Below are positions 15,491-23,776 of a stretch of DNA of 43,722 nt, one piece after another. A program made the translations under genes and the position numbers. Each line of letters starts with the position of its first letter. The stretch's first letter is position 1. A model generated the notes under the pieces. It was not told the origin of the DNA. It saw only the letters and a program-made list of their open reading frames with translations, and did not search any database. The DNA comes from Chloroflexota bacterium (GTDB lineage: Bacteria > Chloroflexota > Limnocylindria > QHBO01). Location: positions 1 to 43,722 of the forward strand of contig JACDEL010000016.1 in assembly GCA_013816405.1 (NCBI GenBank). Direction: 5' to 3'.

Positions 15491-15745
15491 ATGCTTCCAA
15501 GGGACGATCCGAAGCCCGAAGGTGACATGCCCAAGCCGGACGCTCAGCCGGGTGGTGACATGCCTAAGCCCGACGCCCAGCCCGAAGGTGACATGCCCAA
15601 GCCGGACGCTCAGCCGGGTGGTGACATGCCTAAGCCCGACGCCCAGCCCGAACGCGACATGCCCAAGCCCGACGCTCAGCCGGGTGGCGGCACCGGTGGT
15701 GACCTGGACGTGCCAATGGACCCCGATGATCCGGGCCGCATGTAG
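15491..15745 (+). CDS. repeat protein of 11-residue DMPKPDAQP units
   Basis: ATG 15491 is preceded by GAAGGT (one base away) and AAAGGA further up. The 84-aa product is a short lead, five tandem units of the form (E/G)(G/R)DMPKPDAQP, then GGGTGGDLDVPMDPDDPGRM. It is acidic, Pro-rich and must be disordered. There is no signal peptide or membrane segment. Units 1 and 3, and units 2 and 4, are identical in DNA, so a 66-bp pair was duplicated recently. Function unknown; repeats like this are often linkers or divalent-cation-binding tails. Confidence 0.6.
   Translation: MLPRDDPKPEGDMPKPDAQPGGDMPKPDAQPEGDMPKPDAQPGGDMPKPDAQPERDMPKPDAQPGGGTGGDLDVPMDPDDPGRM
15518..15682 (+). repeat. five tandem 33-bp repeats
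   Basis: Units start with GAAGGTGACATG or GGTGGTGACATG alternately. The alternation gives a 66-bp higher-order period. Confidence 0.9.
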
Positions 15746-17516: not shown

Positions 17517-18227
17517 TTAGGCAGCGACCCGCCCGACCACGGCGCCGGTCGCGCCGACCTCGACCACGGTGGGCACGAGCGCGATGCCGTACTTCCGCGC
17601 CAGGTCGGGGCGGTCCCGGACGTCGATCGTCACGTAGCGGCGTCCTGCGGCGCGCAGCGCCGCCTCGATCTTGAGGCAGTCGGTGCAGAGCGGATGGCTG
17701 AAGGCGACGACCACGCCACCGCCGACCTCGATCGGACCGATGTCGCCGAGTTCAACGCGATCGAGGCGTCTCCCGGTAATCCCGCGCAAGCGTGCACCCA
17801 ACCGATAAAGCTGGCAACCGACACAGAAGCCGGTGGAGGCGCCAAGGAGCGCCAGCGCAGCGACTAGCCCTCCCAAGGCCCCGCCAATGGGGGCCAACGA
17901 CAGGGCATAGGCGACTGAGGAGGCGCCGAGGAACACGAAGCCGATCTGGTTGGCGAAGCGCGGTGGCCGGGCGTCTTCGATCGGACCCTCGCCGATGATC
18001 GGCTGAAGGAACTCGAAATAGACCACGCACGGCAGGCAGTAACGCCGGCCGAAGCGCAGCCCGATCCCCAGCTGGACGGCGAGGAGCGCGAGGATCGGCC
18101 ACCAGCCGGTGAGAACGGCCGCGAGCGAGAGGAGGCCGACAGTGGCCTGGTTGAACCTGGGCGCGCGAGCGTCGATGACGTCGAGGTCGCGATACGGGTC
18201 GGCAGTGCGGGAGACTGTGTGAGGCAT
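17517..18227 (-). CDS. DUF4395 membrane protein fused to a thioredoxin-like domain
   Basis: ATG 18227 is preferred over GTG 18236 because AGGTGG lies five bases before it. The 236-aa protein starts with the DUF4395 signature DVIDARAPRFNQ, has about four membrane segments (30-58, 94-115, 117-133) and two CxxC motifs near membrane ends (Cys 64/67, Cys 135/138). A C-terminal thioredoxin-like domain follows, with SHPLCTDCLKIEAAL (Cys 181/184) and an ALVPTVV cis-Pro-like turn. DUF4395 proteins are often linked to sulfur or thiol metabolism. The upstream poly-Cys ORF and hairpins suggest cysteine-dependent expression. Confidence 0.8.
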   Translation of the reverse strand: MPHTVSRTADPYRDLDVIDARAPRFNQATVGLLSLAAVLTGWWPILALLAVQLGIGLRFGRRYCLPCVVYFEFLQPIIGEGPIEDARPPRFANQIGFVFLGASSVAYALSLAPIGGALGGLVAALALLGASTGFCVGCQLYRLGARLRGITGRRLDRVELGDIGPIEVGGGVVVAFSHPLCTDCLKIEAALRAAGRRYVTIDVRDRPDLARKYGIALVPTVVEVGATGAVVGRVAA

Positions 18228-18282
18228 GGGATCCACCTAAAGGGAGCGCCGGCGGGCGCGTGGAACGGAGGAGAGGAGACCG

Positions 18283-18344
18283 GACGGAAGGAGGTGCCGA
18301 GCACGGACGAGAGCCGGACTGGACGGAGGGAAGCCCCTTCCGTC
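18283..18344 (-). promoter_or_regulatory. candidate attenuator with mutually exclusive hairpins
   Basis: On the minus strand, segment 1 GACGGAAGGG begins at the last base of the poly-Cys ORF's stop codon (18344-18335). It can pair with segment 2 CCCTCCGTC (18330-18322, one bulge) or with segment 3 CCTTCCGTC (18291-18283, nine perfect pairs). The stretch up to the DUF4395 gene is C-rich and G-poor, suitable for Rho. There is no T tract. Confidence 0.5.
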
Positions 18345-18415
18345 TAGCGACAGGTGCAGCAGGTGGTGGTGCGGGGTTGCTCGAGCACGATCGCGTAGCA
18401 GCGTAGCACGCTCAT
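18344..18415 (-). CDS. 23-aa poly-cysteine leader ORF
   Basis: ATG 18415 to TAG 18344. The peptide has four Cys: residue 6, and three in the closing [12 protein letters not shown] lies seven bases upstream, and the ATG overlaps the stop of the preceding ORF as ATGA. Short poly-Cys ORFs of this kind act as cysteine-responsive attenuators in mycobacteria: ribosomes pause at the Cys codons when cysteine is low. Here the ORF sits 116 bases upstream of the DUF4395-thioredoxin gene and its stop codon runs directly into an alternative-hairpin region. Role by inference. Confidence 0.6.
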
Positions 18416-18651
18416 GACCGAGCCTCGGCGGCGGCATAGGTCCGCGCGTCCGCCACCCGGCCGGCGATCGCCGAGGCGGCGGCGGTCGCCGGGGAGGCCA
18501 GGAACGTGCGGCCACCGGGTCCCTGGCGCCCTTCGAAGTTCCGATTCGGCCATAGGACTTGCCGTTCAGTGTGGGGCGGCTTGCGCATCGTGCCGCTCAT
18601 CGGGGCACCGGGCCGTGGAGGCGGGCGACGAGGCGCAGGATCATCGCTCAT
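18412..18651 (-). CDS. 79-aa ORF carrying the C-terminal tail of a LeuC/aconitase-type protein
   Basis: ATG 18651 overlaps the previous ORF's end (ATGAGCGATGA), so coupling is likely. After 35 Pro/Arg-rich residues comes [20 protein letters not shown] then [15 protein letters not shown], the unmistakable closing segment of 3-isopropylmalate dehydratase large subunit/aconitase. Everything that makes such an enzyme (Fe-S cysteines, most domains) is missing, so it cannot be catalytic. It is either a deletion remnant still read in an operon or a tail reused for another role. It leads directly into the poly-Cys ORF. Confidence 0.55.
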
Positions 18652-20382: not shown

Positions 20383-20901
20383 TCAACCGACGAGGCGTTG
20401 CCTCACACGGCCGTTGCTGCTCCGCGGCCGCGGGGGACGGGCAAGGAAGACCGTGACCACGAATGCACTGGCCAGCCCGGCCAGGATCACTGGCTGCCGC
20501 ACGAGGGCGATCAGGCGGCCGGCGTTCGGCAGCCGCCACCTCGCCAGGCCGACCATGTCAGCTCGCTTGGGATGCCAGGGGTCAGGCGCGGTGTTGTGGT
20601 CGCCCTGGAGCGTGAAGCCCTCCGTCGCACCGCCGCCGATGACGCGGTGGATCACGATCTTGCCTGCGCCGATGTGTCCGGCCGGGACACGGTAGGCAAC
20701 CACCTCGCCCACGCGGTACGCGGCGGCCGATTGCACGACCACCAGGTCCCCATGCTCGTATGTCGGTAGCATCGAGGATCCGCGGACGGCGACGAACATC
20801 GCAGGGCCACCGAGGGCCTGAGGGCGCAGTGTGAACGCCCACACCACGATCACAGCGGCGGCGAACGCCAGGCTGACGACCCTCCCGACCCCGCGGCTCA
20901 C
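20383..20901 (-). CDS. SipW/ER-type signal peptidase I
   Basis: The 172-aa protein has an N-terminal membrane helix (8-24), the catalytic Ser 43 in VRGSSMLPTYEHGDLVVV, and His 85 in KIVIHRVIGG where bacterial-type enzymes have Lys. Ser/His marks the archaeal, ER and SipW subgroup of S26 peptidases. A second helix near 132-153 and an Arg-rich tail follow. The GTG start overlaps the stop of the upstream DNRLRE-type gene (GTGA). In Bacillus, SipW processes TasA-like matrix proteins encoded beside it; the three upstream secreted proteins here are the natural substrates. Confidence 0.88.
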   Translation of the reverse strand: MSRGVGRVVSLAFAAAVIVVWAFTLRPQALGGPAMFVAVRGSSMLPTYEHGDLVVVQSAAAYRVGEVVAYRVPAGHIGAGKIVIHRVIGGGATEGFTLQGDHNTAPDPWHPKRADMVGLARWRLPNAGRLIALVRQPVILAGLASAFVVTVFLARPPRPRSSNGRVRQRLVG

Positions 20902-21614
20902 GGCACCCTCACATAGGTGATCACCAGTTGGGGCTCCTGGGCGACGGTCCCCAGCTCCTTCGCCGTGAAGGTGGCCGTCCGGGTGGTCGCCGAGCCCTCG
21001 GTGTCGTCGCGAATCATCCAGCCAAAGTTGGTCGCCGTCCCTGCCACGAAGTTCGCAATGTCAGCCGTCACCGTTCCGCCCGCCACGTAGCCAGCGGCCT
21101 GGTTCTGGCATCCCACCGGGGTGCCAACATTGAAGGTGCCCGTCCGCGATCCAGTGGGTGGATTGTTCAACGTCGTGCCAAATGGTTGGTTGTTCCAGGT
21201 CAGGGTCGTCTCAACCCAGGCTGCGGTGACGGGGAAGAGATTGAGAGTCCGGCAAGCGGCCGGGACCGCGGACATATACAACCGCAACGTCGCCAATCGG
21301 ACGATCGCCGATGCGGGAATCGCCGGGCTGCAGACGGTCAGGTCGAACCTCAGGTAGACGCGCTGGTTCACCGCGTTACCCGACGAAACGGTGAGGGTCG
21401 TCAACGCCCCGAAGTTGGTCGTCGGCGTCCCTTGGCGTGCGGTGGTATCGCTGACAGCCGTGGTCGTGGCCGGTGTGGCGGTGATCGTGCAGGTCCGATA
21501 CGGCGTGAAGTTCTGCGATGTGAGGCTGAGGTTCGCGGCTGACCCTGTGACGACCCCGACCCCAAGCAGAATCCCCGCGGCCGCCGTCAGGGCGCGCAGC
21601 AACTGCCTGCTCAT
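20898..21614 (-). CDS. secreted DNRLRE/CBM96-like domain protein
   Basis: ATG 21614 overlaps the preceding gene's stop (ATGA) and starts a signal peptide (MSRQLLRALTAAAGILLGVG). After it comes AANLSLTSQNFTPYRTC, similar to the region after the signal in the two upstream proteins. The 238-aa product has the DNRLRE-type pattern: DTTARQGTPTTNFGALTTLT, RVYLRFDLTV, LATLRLYMSAVP, TLTWNNQPFG and a closing PQLVITYV. Such beta-sandwich domains occur in extracellular fibres and carbohydrate-binding proteins. Likely processed by the co-encoded signal peptidase. Confidence 0.8.
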   Translation of the reverse strand: MSRQLLRALTAAAGILLGVGVVTGSAANLSLTSQNFTPYRTCTITATPATTTAVSDTTARQGTPTTNFGALTTLTVSSGNAVNQRVYLRFDLTVCSPAIPASAIVRLATLRLYMSAVPAACRTLNLFPVTAAWVETTLTWNNQPFGTTLNNPPTGSRTGTFNVGTPVGCQNQAAGYVAGGTVTADIANFVAGTATNFGWMIRDDTEGSATTRTATFTAKELGTVAQEPQLVITYVRVP

Positions 21615-21994
21615 GGACCCACCAGGACGAGGTCCGTCTGCTCGGCGGCGGTCACGGCTTGGGCGACGGCAAGGGTCACCGTCACCGAGCCACCTCCGCC
21701 CGGCACCGCTGCAGACCCGCTGCTGTTGGTGACGCCGTTGTTCACTGTGACCTGCAGGGTTGCCCCACCGCAGGCCGCCGGCAGGGCACCGACGGTCACG
21801 CTGGCCACGGTGCCGGCGGTCAGGTTCTGGAGGACGGAGAGGCCAGCGGTCGTGCAACGCGGCGTCGCTGTCGTTGCCGCACCCAAGGAGCCCGATGCGA
21901 AGTTGAGCGACGCCGCAGCGCCGACGACTGCGCCCGCGGCCGTAATCAGGATCACGACCACGATCCTGCGCAGGGTGCTCATTGGGCTGTCCAT
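21611..21994 (-). CDS. secreted surface protein, SipW-substrate-like
   Basis: Starts at ATG 21994 (MDSPM) or ATG 21982 (MSTLRR). A hydrophobic signal (RIVVVILITAAGAVVGAA) is followed by ASLNFASGSLGAATT, then a Cys-containing beta-rich domain with RCTTAGLSVLQNL and LPAACGGATLQVTVNNG. The segment after the signal resembles that of TasA/camelysin-type proteins (LNVTSGSLG-like). It is the second of three secreted proteins preceding a SipW-type peptidase. Probably a small matrix or fibre subunit; inference from context. Confidence 0.7.
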   Translation of the reverse strand: MDSPMSTLRRIVVVILITAAGAVVGAAASLNFASGSLGAATTATPRCTTAGLSVLQNLTAGTVASVTVGALPAACGGATLQVTVNNGVTNSSGSAAVPGGGGSVTVTLAVAQAVTAAEQTDLVLVGP

Positions 21995-22047
21995 GGCGGT
22001 AAGCCGGGACAGGCGGCCTCGTGGCACGCCTGCCCCGTCACATCGCA

Positions 22048-22443
22048 CTAGCCGCTGATCACCACATTGACGGCTGTCACCGAGGCCGCCGATACGACCG
22101 GAGCGAATGTCACGACGATCGTCGTGCCCGCACCCGGGGTGGTCCCAGTCGCTTCGCCGAGCGACGCACCCGCGGCGGTCGACAGCGTGACCTTGTAAGG
22201 CTTGCTGTAACAGGTCGCTGCCAGGCCGGTGATGGTGACTGTGCCGACCGTGTACCCCGGCCCTGGGGCGGCCGCCGTGTAGGTCGACGTGTACGTGGCG
22301 TTCATCGCGCCAGCCTGGCAAGCGGCAACGACAGTCGTCGCCGATCCGAGGCTGTCACTGGTGAGGTTCAAGCTCGCGGCCATACCGAATACGAGCCCGA
22401 AGGTCATGAGACCTGCGAGGACTGCGCCCAATATGCGTTTCAT
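22048..22443 (-). CDS. secreted surface protein, SipW-substrate-like, first gene of the cassette
   Basis: ATG 22443 starts MKRILGAVLAGLMTFGLVFG, then AASLNLTSDSLGSATTVVAA. The 131-aa product is Thr/Ala/Gly-rich with two Cys (ACQAGAMNATYTSTY, GLAATCYSKPYKVTLS) and a strand-rich end VVTFAPVVSAASVTAVNVVI. Layout and length parallel the next gene, 53 bases downstream, suggesting paralogous subunits. GGAG lies 11 bases upstream. It heads the four-gene cassette that ends with the signal peptidase. Confidence 0.7.
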   Translation of the reverse strand: MKRILGAVLAGLMTFGLVFGMAASLNLTSDSLGSATTVVAACQAGAMNATYTSTYTAAAPGPGYTVGTVTITGLAATCYSKPYKVTLSTAAGASLGEATGTTPGAGTTIVVTFAPVVSAASVTAVNVVISG

Positions 22444-22570
22444 CTGAAATTGGCTCCGGATGAGGTAATCGCCCCCGACCACGGCATTTGATCCCTGGAA
22501 CAAGTCCCGCGACATTACCCAATAGGACCAGCGCTCGGCAGTACTCGCGGATGGAGTCCGACGACGGTTG

Positions 22571-23776
22571 CTAGGTCGGATTGAGCTCGGATCGCAGCGC
22601 ATGCGGGGTCTGCTGCTCTGACAGCAGCCGGTTGAAGCCACGGGTCTGGCCATGCACCTCCAGCCATTCCAAGACAAGGCGCCGGCCCTCGATATGCGCG
22701 AACGGCTGGGTGCGCAGGACGGGATCTCGCAGCCGGGAGATCGTCTCATCCAGGCGCTCATCGCTGACCAGCCCCACGTCCGCGAGGTAGGAACGCACCT
22801 CGTCGACCGGCTCGCCATCGCGGTGCAGGGCCACCGCCGCATTGCCCAGGGCGGGGGCCAGCAGGCGCCGGGCGCGCTGCACCATTAGCCCCGATGCGAC
22901 GTCCAGCCGTCGGTCGACGGAGCGAGCCAGCCGCTGCAGCTCTGAGCCCAGCTCGTCGTCGCTCATCACGACCTCGCGGCCGATCCCGGCCATCCCCTCG
23001 CTGACCAGCCCCTGCGGAGAGAGCGTCGTGGACAGGCTGAGCTCCTCGTGCCCGACCGAGGCCAGGAGGTCGTCCTTGACCGACGCCTCGGCGTGGTGCC
23101 CCGGATAGCCCTCGTGAGCGACGAGCTCCGCGAGCGTTCCGAACGTCAGCGGCCGGTCGATGTTGATGCGGACGACGGAGCGGCCTGCGCCTAGAAATTG
23201 AGCGTCAATCGTCCACCCGACGTCACGCGCCGCTTCGATGCGCAGCGATTCGCGCTCGGGAAGCCAAAGCTGTGTGCGCGCCCTCGTGCGCAGCCGAGCC
23301 GAAAGCTCCGAGGCGAGGGCGATGATTCGCTCGGGTGGGACGCGACCGCGGGAGTCGTGGTCGGCGAGCCGCTCTCGCAGCGAGCCGCTGCCCCGAAGCG
23401 CGGAGTCGAGCATGCGGCGCGCCGTGTCGAAGGTCGCGTCGGGCTCGAGCTGGACCTCGATGTCGTACAGGTCCTCGACGAGGTCGACGTAACCGATCTC
23501 CTCTCCGCCGGCCAGGCGTGCCAGTGCTCCCATCGCCCCGACCTGGGCGATGAGCCAACTGACGCGGCGACGGCGGGTGGCCGTATCGGCGGGGAGCTCG
23601 GCGGCCATTCCCGCCAGCTGCATGGCTTCGTCGTGCAGCTCGGCAGCCGGCGTGAGGGGCTCGCCGTCGACCGCCTCCGACAGCTCGGCAGGGCCGTGGT
23701 ACGAGTCGACCAGCCGCGGCAGGTGTCGTCCCAGGCGCAGCCCCAGCAGCAGGTAGCGGAGCGCGATATCGTCCAC
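22571..23776 (-). CDS. DUF885-like zinc metallopeptidase
   Basis: I start at GTG 23776 (MDDIALRYLLLGLRLGRHLP) because TAGCAT lies seven bases upstream; the open frame extends further but without support. The 401-aa protein is soluble and mostly helical. It has the HExxPGHH-type motif LVAHEGYPGHHAEASVKDD, whose His and Glu would bind zinc, followed by LSPQGLVSEGMAGIGREVV with the third ligand Glu. These are the features of the DUF885 family of metallopeptidases. The substrate is unknown. It is divergent from rsgA. Confidence 0.75.
   Translation of the reverse strand: MDDIALRYLLLGLRLGRHLPRLVDSYHGPAELSEAVDGEPLTPAAELHDEAMQLAGMAAELPADTATRRRRVSWLIAQVGAMGALARLAGGEEIGYVDLVEDLYDIEVQLEPDATFDTARRMLDSALRGSGSLRERLADHDSRGRVPPERIIALASELSARLRTRARTQLWLPERESLRIEAARDVGWTIDAQFLGAGRSVVRINIDRPLTFGTLAELVAHEGYPGHHAEASVKDDLLASVGHEELSLSTTLSPQGLVSEGMAGIGREVVMSDDELGSELQRLARSVDRRLDVASGLMVQRARRLLAPALGNAAVALHRDGEPVDEVRSYLADVGLVSDERLDETISRLRDPVLRTQPFAHIEGRRLVLEWLEVHGQTRGFNRLLSEQQTPHALRSELNPT

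Follow-up and report, generated by a model that had tools for sequence, protein, structure and literature searches.

Candidate cysteine-responsive leader ORFs with a stop-codon stem upstream of DUF4395-thioredoxin and other sulfur genes in a Chloroflexota class

Background

Leader peptides with runs of Cys codons were predicted in 2005 upstream of cys operons in Mycobacterium, Propionibacterium acnes and Bifidobacterium (PMC1262725). In the accessible text of that report, these actinobacterial leaders are described as being without conserved hairpins, Rho is suggested to be involved and tnaC-type Rho-dependent attenuation is mentioned. Leaderless Cys-rich uORFs of mycobacteria, one of them located before cysA2, were described by Shell 2015 (PMC4633059), and the accessible text of a third report describes a cysS uORF motif of Rhodobacterales, uORFC-8-2, that is accompanied by a terminator (PMC8632094).

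A literature search, with most subscription journals outside its reach, returned no description of such leaders in Chloroflexota. Based on this result, the Chloroflexota leaders characterized here are taken to be new, while the mycobacterial kind was already known. In 2020, Canestrari reportedly characterized the mycobacterial polycysteine sORFs as cysteine-responsive attenuators. We take these sORFs to have a long Cys run, whereas the Chloroflexota leaders have a short C-x-C tail and 2-5 Cys; in M. tuberculosis, the DUF4395 and thioredoxin genes presumably adjoin cysA2. In tnaC, whether a C-rich stretch is accessible depends on a ribosome at the stop codon of the leader, and free tryptophan is sensed by nascent-peptide arrest.

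The leader ORF and its genomic context

The leader studied here lies in a 43,722 nt stretch of Chloroflexota DNA (the window), on the minus strand and upstream of a DUF4395-thioredoxin gene. The features of this region are as follows:

17517 to 18227, minus strand: DUF4395 and thioredoxin/glutaredoxin-like gene, start ATG 18227 (PF14340, E-value: 1.7e-28)
18228 to 18343, minus strand: spacer from leader stop to gene start, 116 nt, C-rich and G-poor (C minus G skew 0.20)
18344 to 18388, minus strand: Cys leader ORF, GTG start at 18388, 14 codons, stop codon TAG at 18344
18400 to 18405, minus strand: -10-like element TACGCT, made an extended -10 by a preceding TGC and separated by 11 nt from the leader start codon
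18412 to 18651, minus strand: upstream ORF between sufB and the leader, in which all that is left of LeuC is its C-terminal ~45 residues
18899 to 20311, minus strand: sufB, further upstream of the leader

The thioredoxin/glutaredoxin-like part of the DUF4395 protein is C-terminal, and its Glutaredoxin and Thioredoxin matches are below cut-off. The longest ORF of this gene begins at GTG 18236 (17517-18236, 239 aa); the start was set at ATG 18227 because this position fits the alignment of orthologue starts. Judging by its sequence, the LeuC-tail ORF looks like a gene relic that lies outside the switch proposed below.

The original prediction described the leader as a 23-codon ORF with four Cys codons, a GAGG site upstream and ATGA coupling to the preceding ORF. 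These elements are all in the sequence: the 23-codon ORF is present at 18414-18344 (minus strand), preceded by GAGG, and its ATG at 18414 overlaps the end of the ORF at 18651-18412. However, both the GAGG site and the overlap are absent from the paralogue in the same genome and from the six other aligned leaders, and the conserved start is GTG 18388, which leaves 14 codons. A start at ATG 18414 with ATGA coupling was rejected for this reason. No NCBIfam family was found for the 23-residue peptide, and the only Rfam 15 match within window positions 18100-18600 was on the opposite strand, with an E-value of 1.5 and a score below the gathering threshold.

The peptide of the window copy ends in C-C-T-C-R, and at this locus a sulfur/redox gene is preceded by a short ORF whose Cys codons lie close to its stop codon. 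As far as the accessible text of PMC4633059 describes them, the mycobacterial polycysteine sORFs are similar in their C-terminal Cys codons and in the sulfur genes downstream, and probably also in that they start at the transcript start; there too several operons of one lineage carry such an sORF. The uORFC-8-2 motif likewise combines a structured leader with tandem Cys codons in its uORF, but according to the accessible text of PMC8632094 it is associated with cysS, occurs in another phylum and ends in a U-tailed intrinsic terminator. At the locus described here, the downstream gene is DUF4395-thioredoxin and no U-tailed terminator was found.

Conservation with the DUF4395-thioredoxin gene

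The window belongs to a family designated f1, while f2, f3 and f4 are other families of the same class. When 101 genomes were searched, the DUF4395-thioredoxin gene was found at an E-value of 3e-43 or better in 29 genomes and 30 places. The leader is present in all seven f1 places with the gene (six genomes) and in the single f3 place, where it reads MIARRRIDCLCP. The f1 leaders besides the window copy are MLEHRRKRCCICR, MTSSRTHATCSCACR, MTNGRCTSTWTCSCR, MIDVRRCTPDSCAFCCICR, MTDIRRSICTDTCICR and MIRKHLSTLELRLPASRCSCR. The first of these precedes a second copy of the gene in the window's own genome (contig C97), which is 88% identical and has a redoxin (thioredoxin-like) gene before it instead of sufB or leuC; the two copies share all 23 bases that run from the stop-codon G through the local hairpin. 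The C97 copy (L002) lies beside both the redoxin gene and an ORF that, by eye, looks like an IscA/NifU-type protein. As the window copy is beside sufB, both gene copies are near Fe-S genes.

None of the 22 f2 loci shows a leader by an sORF filter that was not itself run on the known leaders (a similar filter recovers 14 of 16); in f2, the gene usually lies behind an ATP-grasp-like gene, as judged by eye. The expectation that relatives with the DUF4395 gene would keep the leader was thus borne out in f1 (7/7) and f3 (1/1) and failed in f2 (0/22). The filter used for f2 found no leader in an 'Archangium' MAG (L004), and L033, one of the matches to DUF4395 only, has no CxC-tail leader; the leader counts leave out the other DUF4395-only matches (E-value above 1e-20).

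A pattern derived from the leaders was also used to search all 177 genomes of the class. It gave eight sites in seven genomes, compared to none for a reversed-pattern control. Six of these genomes had already been found via the gene, and the seventh, G002, is of the same genus. G002 carries an orphan leader, MTTPSTHTACSCACR, together with its stem (L042, 1863-1935), which is not followed by a DUF4395-thioredoxin gene; the rest of this genome has no close match either. DNA cytosine methyltransferase-like and Vsr-like ORFs were noted by eye near this orphan leader. The pattern missed G049, in which the tail is CLCP.

The ORF preceding the window leader is a leuC relic, and a chance ORF beside a decayed gene might be expected at such a place. 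This explanation is extremely improbable given that the leader is conserved in the paralogue, where the upstream sequence is unrelated, as well as in further genomes. Furthermore, a filter for sORFs with a Cys-rich end and a start behind a -10-like element (which recovers 14 of the 16 known leaders, missing G009 and G050) gave only one other match in 87,444 window positions on both strands. Based on this low yield and on the recurrence of the leader before the same gene in relatives, the leader is more than a chance ORF.

Codon usage was counted in the eight leaders located via the neighbouring DUF4395 gene. Cys accounts for 24 of 117 in-frame codons after the start, compared to 0/117 and 0/117 in the other two frames, and for 8 of 85 in-frame codons when the conserved last four codons are removed. 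The Cys tail is kept in 8/8 of these leaders. They are 12-21 residues in length, and their N-terminal parts differ in length and sequence, while the C-x-C tail and the TAG stop codon are invariant. A functional Cys-rich micropeptide that binds metal or takes part in redox chemistry, with the stem being incidental, would account for the conserved C-x-C tail. We consider such a role very unlikely for three reasons. First, the sORFs encode only 11-23 residues, and their sequence outside the tail is unconserved. Second, they are found with a single class of partner, sulfur/redox genes. Third, a stem is fixed at the stop codon.

Promoter-like elements

The window copy has no visible -35 element, and a consensus promoter scan of 18150-18500 found none. 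The paralogue is similar to the window copy in that it shows only TGC-TACGCT 11 nt from the leader start. Near the same place, the other f1/f3 leaders have TACGCT or TAGGCT (5/6) or TAGACT (one leader). Across the 16 leaders, eight have a TTGNNN-17-TANNNN pair ending 7-9 nt before the start codon, while such a pair precedes 1 of 3,159 window start codons (a background counted with gaps of 8-10); in G009, the pair is 13 nt from the leader start. Because these promoter-like elements are so close to the start codons, the leader mRNAs are probably leaderless, or close to it. In several f2/f4 leaders (described below) the would-be start codon is TTG, which is unusual.

Additional sequences were noticed at some of the f2/f4 leaders. 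The leader starts of L082, L084, L085 and L086 share a TTGACY..CARGTCGGAWTT-like sequence, and TAGGAATTCC is found upstream of the leaders of L087/L088. These upstream sequences strike us as reminiscent of Rrf2/CymR-type operators, and because of this likeness a second layer of control is possible at these leaders.

RNA strands and competing pairings

Three strands of the leader RNA are relevant to its predicted folding:

18334 to 18344, minus strand: strand 1, shared (GACGGAAGGGG), whose first base is the G of the leader stop codon
18322 to 18330, minus strand: strand 2, 3' arm of the local hairpin (CCCTCCGTC), identical in the paralogue
18283 to 18293, minus strand: strand 3, distal complement (CTCCTTCCGTC), 11/11 with strand 1 (shuffle p 0.038)

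As originally noted, TAG runs into GACGGAAGGG, and its two proposed partners are in place at 18330-18322 and, as CCTTCCGTC, at 18291-18283. The local pairing of GACGGAAGGG exists, but it needs one bulged A and by itself is no stabler than shuffled sequences (z -1.0); the same is true of the local hairpins of the DUF4395 leaders (z +0.9 to -1.6). The distal pairing, predicted over nine bases, extends to 11/11 (18344-18334 with 18293-18283) and includes one G-U pair. That strand 1 has two competing partners proved correct in the relatives as well, where both pairings are kept. Predicted minimum-energy folds use the local partner in some DUF4395 leaders and the distal partner in others.

The stem that begins at the leader stop codon is GC-rich. 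Over 15 leaders (one duplicate being left out), the first 8 nt from the stop-codon G have a mean unpaired probability of 0.07, compared to 0.44 (sd 7%) in shuffled spacers, and 0/60 shuffle sets were as low. A distal complement of strand 1 matching 10-11 of 11 positions is found in 8/8 DUF4395 leaders and ends 38-84 nt before the gene. The shuffle p-values for this complement are 0.038, 0.018, 0.006, 0.174, 0.042, 0.052, 0.046 and 0.000; they are thus at or below 0.052 in seven of the eight, and the complement in G019 (p 0.174) is within chance. Strand 1 pairs with its own strand 3 at 10.75 of 11 positions and with those of other species at 10.46. Covariation in the distal helix is slight, with only columns 2 and 6 varying on both sides, and these changes are too few to stand alone.

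A palindrome-like sequence that is identical in both copies of one genome might instead be a DNA operator for a regulator, with the ORF as a by-product. We consider this very unlikely, as the stem in f2/f4 has a different sequence but still begins at the stop codon, and as the in-frame Cys bias would be left unaccounted for. The stem also sets the Chloroflexota leaders apart from the mycobacterial ones: its position is tied to the stop codon, and the DUF4395 leaders have a second partner strand in addition, while the mycobacterial regions are reported to be without conserved hairpins in the accessible text of PMC1262725.

Proposed mechanism

From sequence comparison, these leaders are probably cysteine-responsive, ribosome-operated attenuators that represent a Chloroflexota form of those described for the polycysteine sORFs of mycobacteria. 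The original prediction that an attenuator of the mycobacterial kind operates in another lineage is in agreement with the comparative evidence from f1 (7/7) and f3 (1/1), the Cys codon count (24/117) and the preserved pairings; the f2 loci with the DUF4395 gene run against it (0/22 by the filter). Within this model we infer that the transcript is leaderless and that ribosomes stall, and we also infer which way the response goes and what the expression platform is. Transcription would begin at GTG 18388 or no more than a few bases from it, and the 14-codon peptide would be translated first. When Cys-tRNA is ample, the ribosome would reach the stop codon and its footprint would cover strand 1, leaving the C-rich strands 2 and 3 single-stranded. 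Expression of the DUF4395-thioredoxin gene would then be lowered, either by Rho loading or by blocked initiation of translation. When cysteine is short, the ribosome would stall at the Cys codons, strand 1 would be free to pair with strand 2 or strand 3, the C-rich strands would be masked and the gene would be expressed.

We favour this direction (gene down when cysteine is plentiful and up when it is short) on the basis of mycobacterial precedent and stall geometry, as a ribosome at the stop codon would remove the stem while an earlier stall at Cys would leave it. The last Cys codon is in the A site two codons before the stop codon. It had been proposed that a ribosome at the stop codon covers the shared strand and that one stalled at Cys does not. 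When folding was constrained by a ribosome at the stop codon, the stem was lost, and when the ribosome was placed at the Cys codon four codons before the stop, the stem was kept; however, a ribosome stalled at the last Cys codon already overlaps strand 1 in part, and for this codon the proposal holds only partially. The leaders would resemble tnaC in that a ribosome at the leader stop is proposed to control access to a C-rich stretch, but differ from it in that nothing in the Chloroflexota leaders points to an arrest peptide.

An intrinsic terminator before the gene, as in a trp-type attenuator, was looked for in window positions 18150-18500 and not found. A tentative alternative as the expression platform is Rho-dependent attenuation of transcription, in which the untranslated C-rich spacer would load Rho unless strand 1 masks strands 2 and 3. 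The absence of an intrinsic terminator is consistent with this platform, as is the presence of a rho gene in 5/5 genomes checked. The C-rich, G-poor stretch that had been noted before the DUF4395-thioredoxin gene is confirmed, with Rho itself being a candidate: the skew of 0.20 is reached by only 0.5% of same-length window stretches, and in all eight DUF4395 leaders the spacer skew is in the top 1.3-4.1% of same-length stretches of their own loci. Leaders of f2/f4, in contrast, are mostly without such a skew (fraction 0.048-0.839). In the accessible text of PMC1262725, Rho is proposed for the mycobacterial cys leaders; the 2005 Actinobacteria leaders are also similar in having Cys codons near the stop and no intrinsic terminator, and differ in phylum and in that a conserved stem is not described for them there.

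Attenuation of translation is a possible but rather doubtful platform. The C-rich strands would act as anti-Shine-Dalgarno sequences for the site of the gene, and strand 1, which contains GGAG, would occupy them during a stall. CTCC is present in strands 2 and 3, and most of the gene sites contain GGAG or GAGG. On the other hand, constrained folding of the 16 leaders showed that a ribosome on strand 1 hardly alters how often, on average, the site is unpaired in most of them. Translation attenuation is described for M. smegmatis cysteine genes in the accessible text of a citing paper (PMC13236596).

Leaders upstream of other sulfur genes

Similar sORFs are located before sulfurtransferase, carbonic anhydrase-sulfurtransferase or sulfonate-transporter genes in nine f2/f4 genomes. 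Weaker matches of a sequence-only model and the pattern TGYRYCTGTCNSTAGRC led to them, except for the sORF of G036, which came from a check described below. These sORFs end in TCVCP, ACVCL and similar tails; a further one, in G146 (MSAALPSTGCHCTCR), is at a contig end. In these leaders, as in the DUF4395 ones, the stem begins at the stop codon, but its sequence is different. The genes downstream of the leaders are as follows:

G026 (f4), G028 and G046 (f2): sulfurtransferase
G076 and G040: carbonic anhydrase, then sulfurtransferase
G056, G058 (near identical) and G050: SsuA-family sulfonate-binding protein

The pattern TGYRYCTGTCNSTAGRC gave 16 matches in 15/177 genomes and six matches in the reversed-pattern control, and for this reason the pattern alone is not proof of a leader. 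Based on context, 15 of the 16 matches were retained; the match in L089 (G060) was dropped as a chance match inside coding sequence. As a check independent of the Cys pattern, the sulfurtransferase and the SsuA protein were searched for over the class and the regions upstream were scanned. Among 30 sulfurtransferase loci, the leader is directly before the gene in four (G046, G028, G026 and, newly, G036 with MTAKLPSSRLTCVCP) and before the carbonic anhydrase gene in two. The rest comprise a weak candidate without a -10 element (L141), a chance-like match 442 nt away (L132), a locus with no upstream sequence (L118) and 21 loci with no leader. The SsuA loci have a leader in 3/8 cases and none in 5/8. 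With so few sulfurtransferase and SsuA loci carrying a leader, the device is patchy even inside the class. The sORF filter, applied to 30 further loci, matched only two of the leaders already described, and no leader-like match was found at the 15 rhodanese loci scanned out of 18 in five genomes, three of these genomes being f1 (L102, L103 and L109 were left out).

The phylum-wide search with the sequence-only model gave matches at an E-value of 0.01 or less in 13/400 genomes. Five of these hold the source sequences of the model, one has a weak match within the class and seven are outside the class. The nine strong class matches of the model are the very sequences from which it was built and are thus not independent evidence; the weaker matches are all that is new from the model in the class. 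No leader was seen by eye at L073, L074 and L078 of the seven outside matches (L075, L076, L077 and L079 were left out). The pattern TGYRYCTGTCNSTAGGC matched 8/400 genomes, six in the class and two outside (L115 and L116); the latter two matches were rejected because, by eye, they are within the coding sequence of other genes.

These leaders may together form a cysteine 'ribulon' of the Chloroflexota class, a reading for and against which we find the case evenly balanced. Leaderless Cys sORFs would precede different sulfur genes in each family, with a stop-codon strand that chooses between two partners; the gene sets would be DUF4395-thioredoxin in f1/f3, sulfurtransferase with or without carbonic anhydrase in f2/f4 and the sulfonate transporter in f2. 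Such a 'ribulon' could have arisen independently of the mycobacterial scheme, or both could go back to a very old common origin. If this reading is correct, cysteine sensing by leaderless sORFs is not an actinobacterial peculiarity, and the conserved RNA stem makes the mechanism testable. The uncharacterised DUF4395-thioredoxin protein would be tied to cysteine/sulfur supply, and the Cys tail with the stop-codon stem would be a simple handle for finding sulfur operons in uncultured Chloroflexota.

Two further observations were made in the window. An ORF on the plus strand (15491-15745) is built of repeated DMPKPDAQPGG-like units. On the minus strand (20383-22842), a signal-peptidase-like ORF (Peptidase_S24/S26) adjoins several small ORFs that resemble one another in their hydrophobic N-termini and contain ASLNLTS-like motifs, a group that we take to resemble a SipW/TasA-type set.
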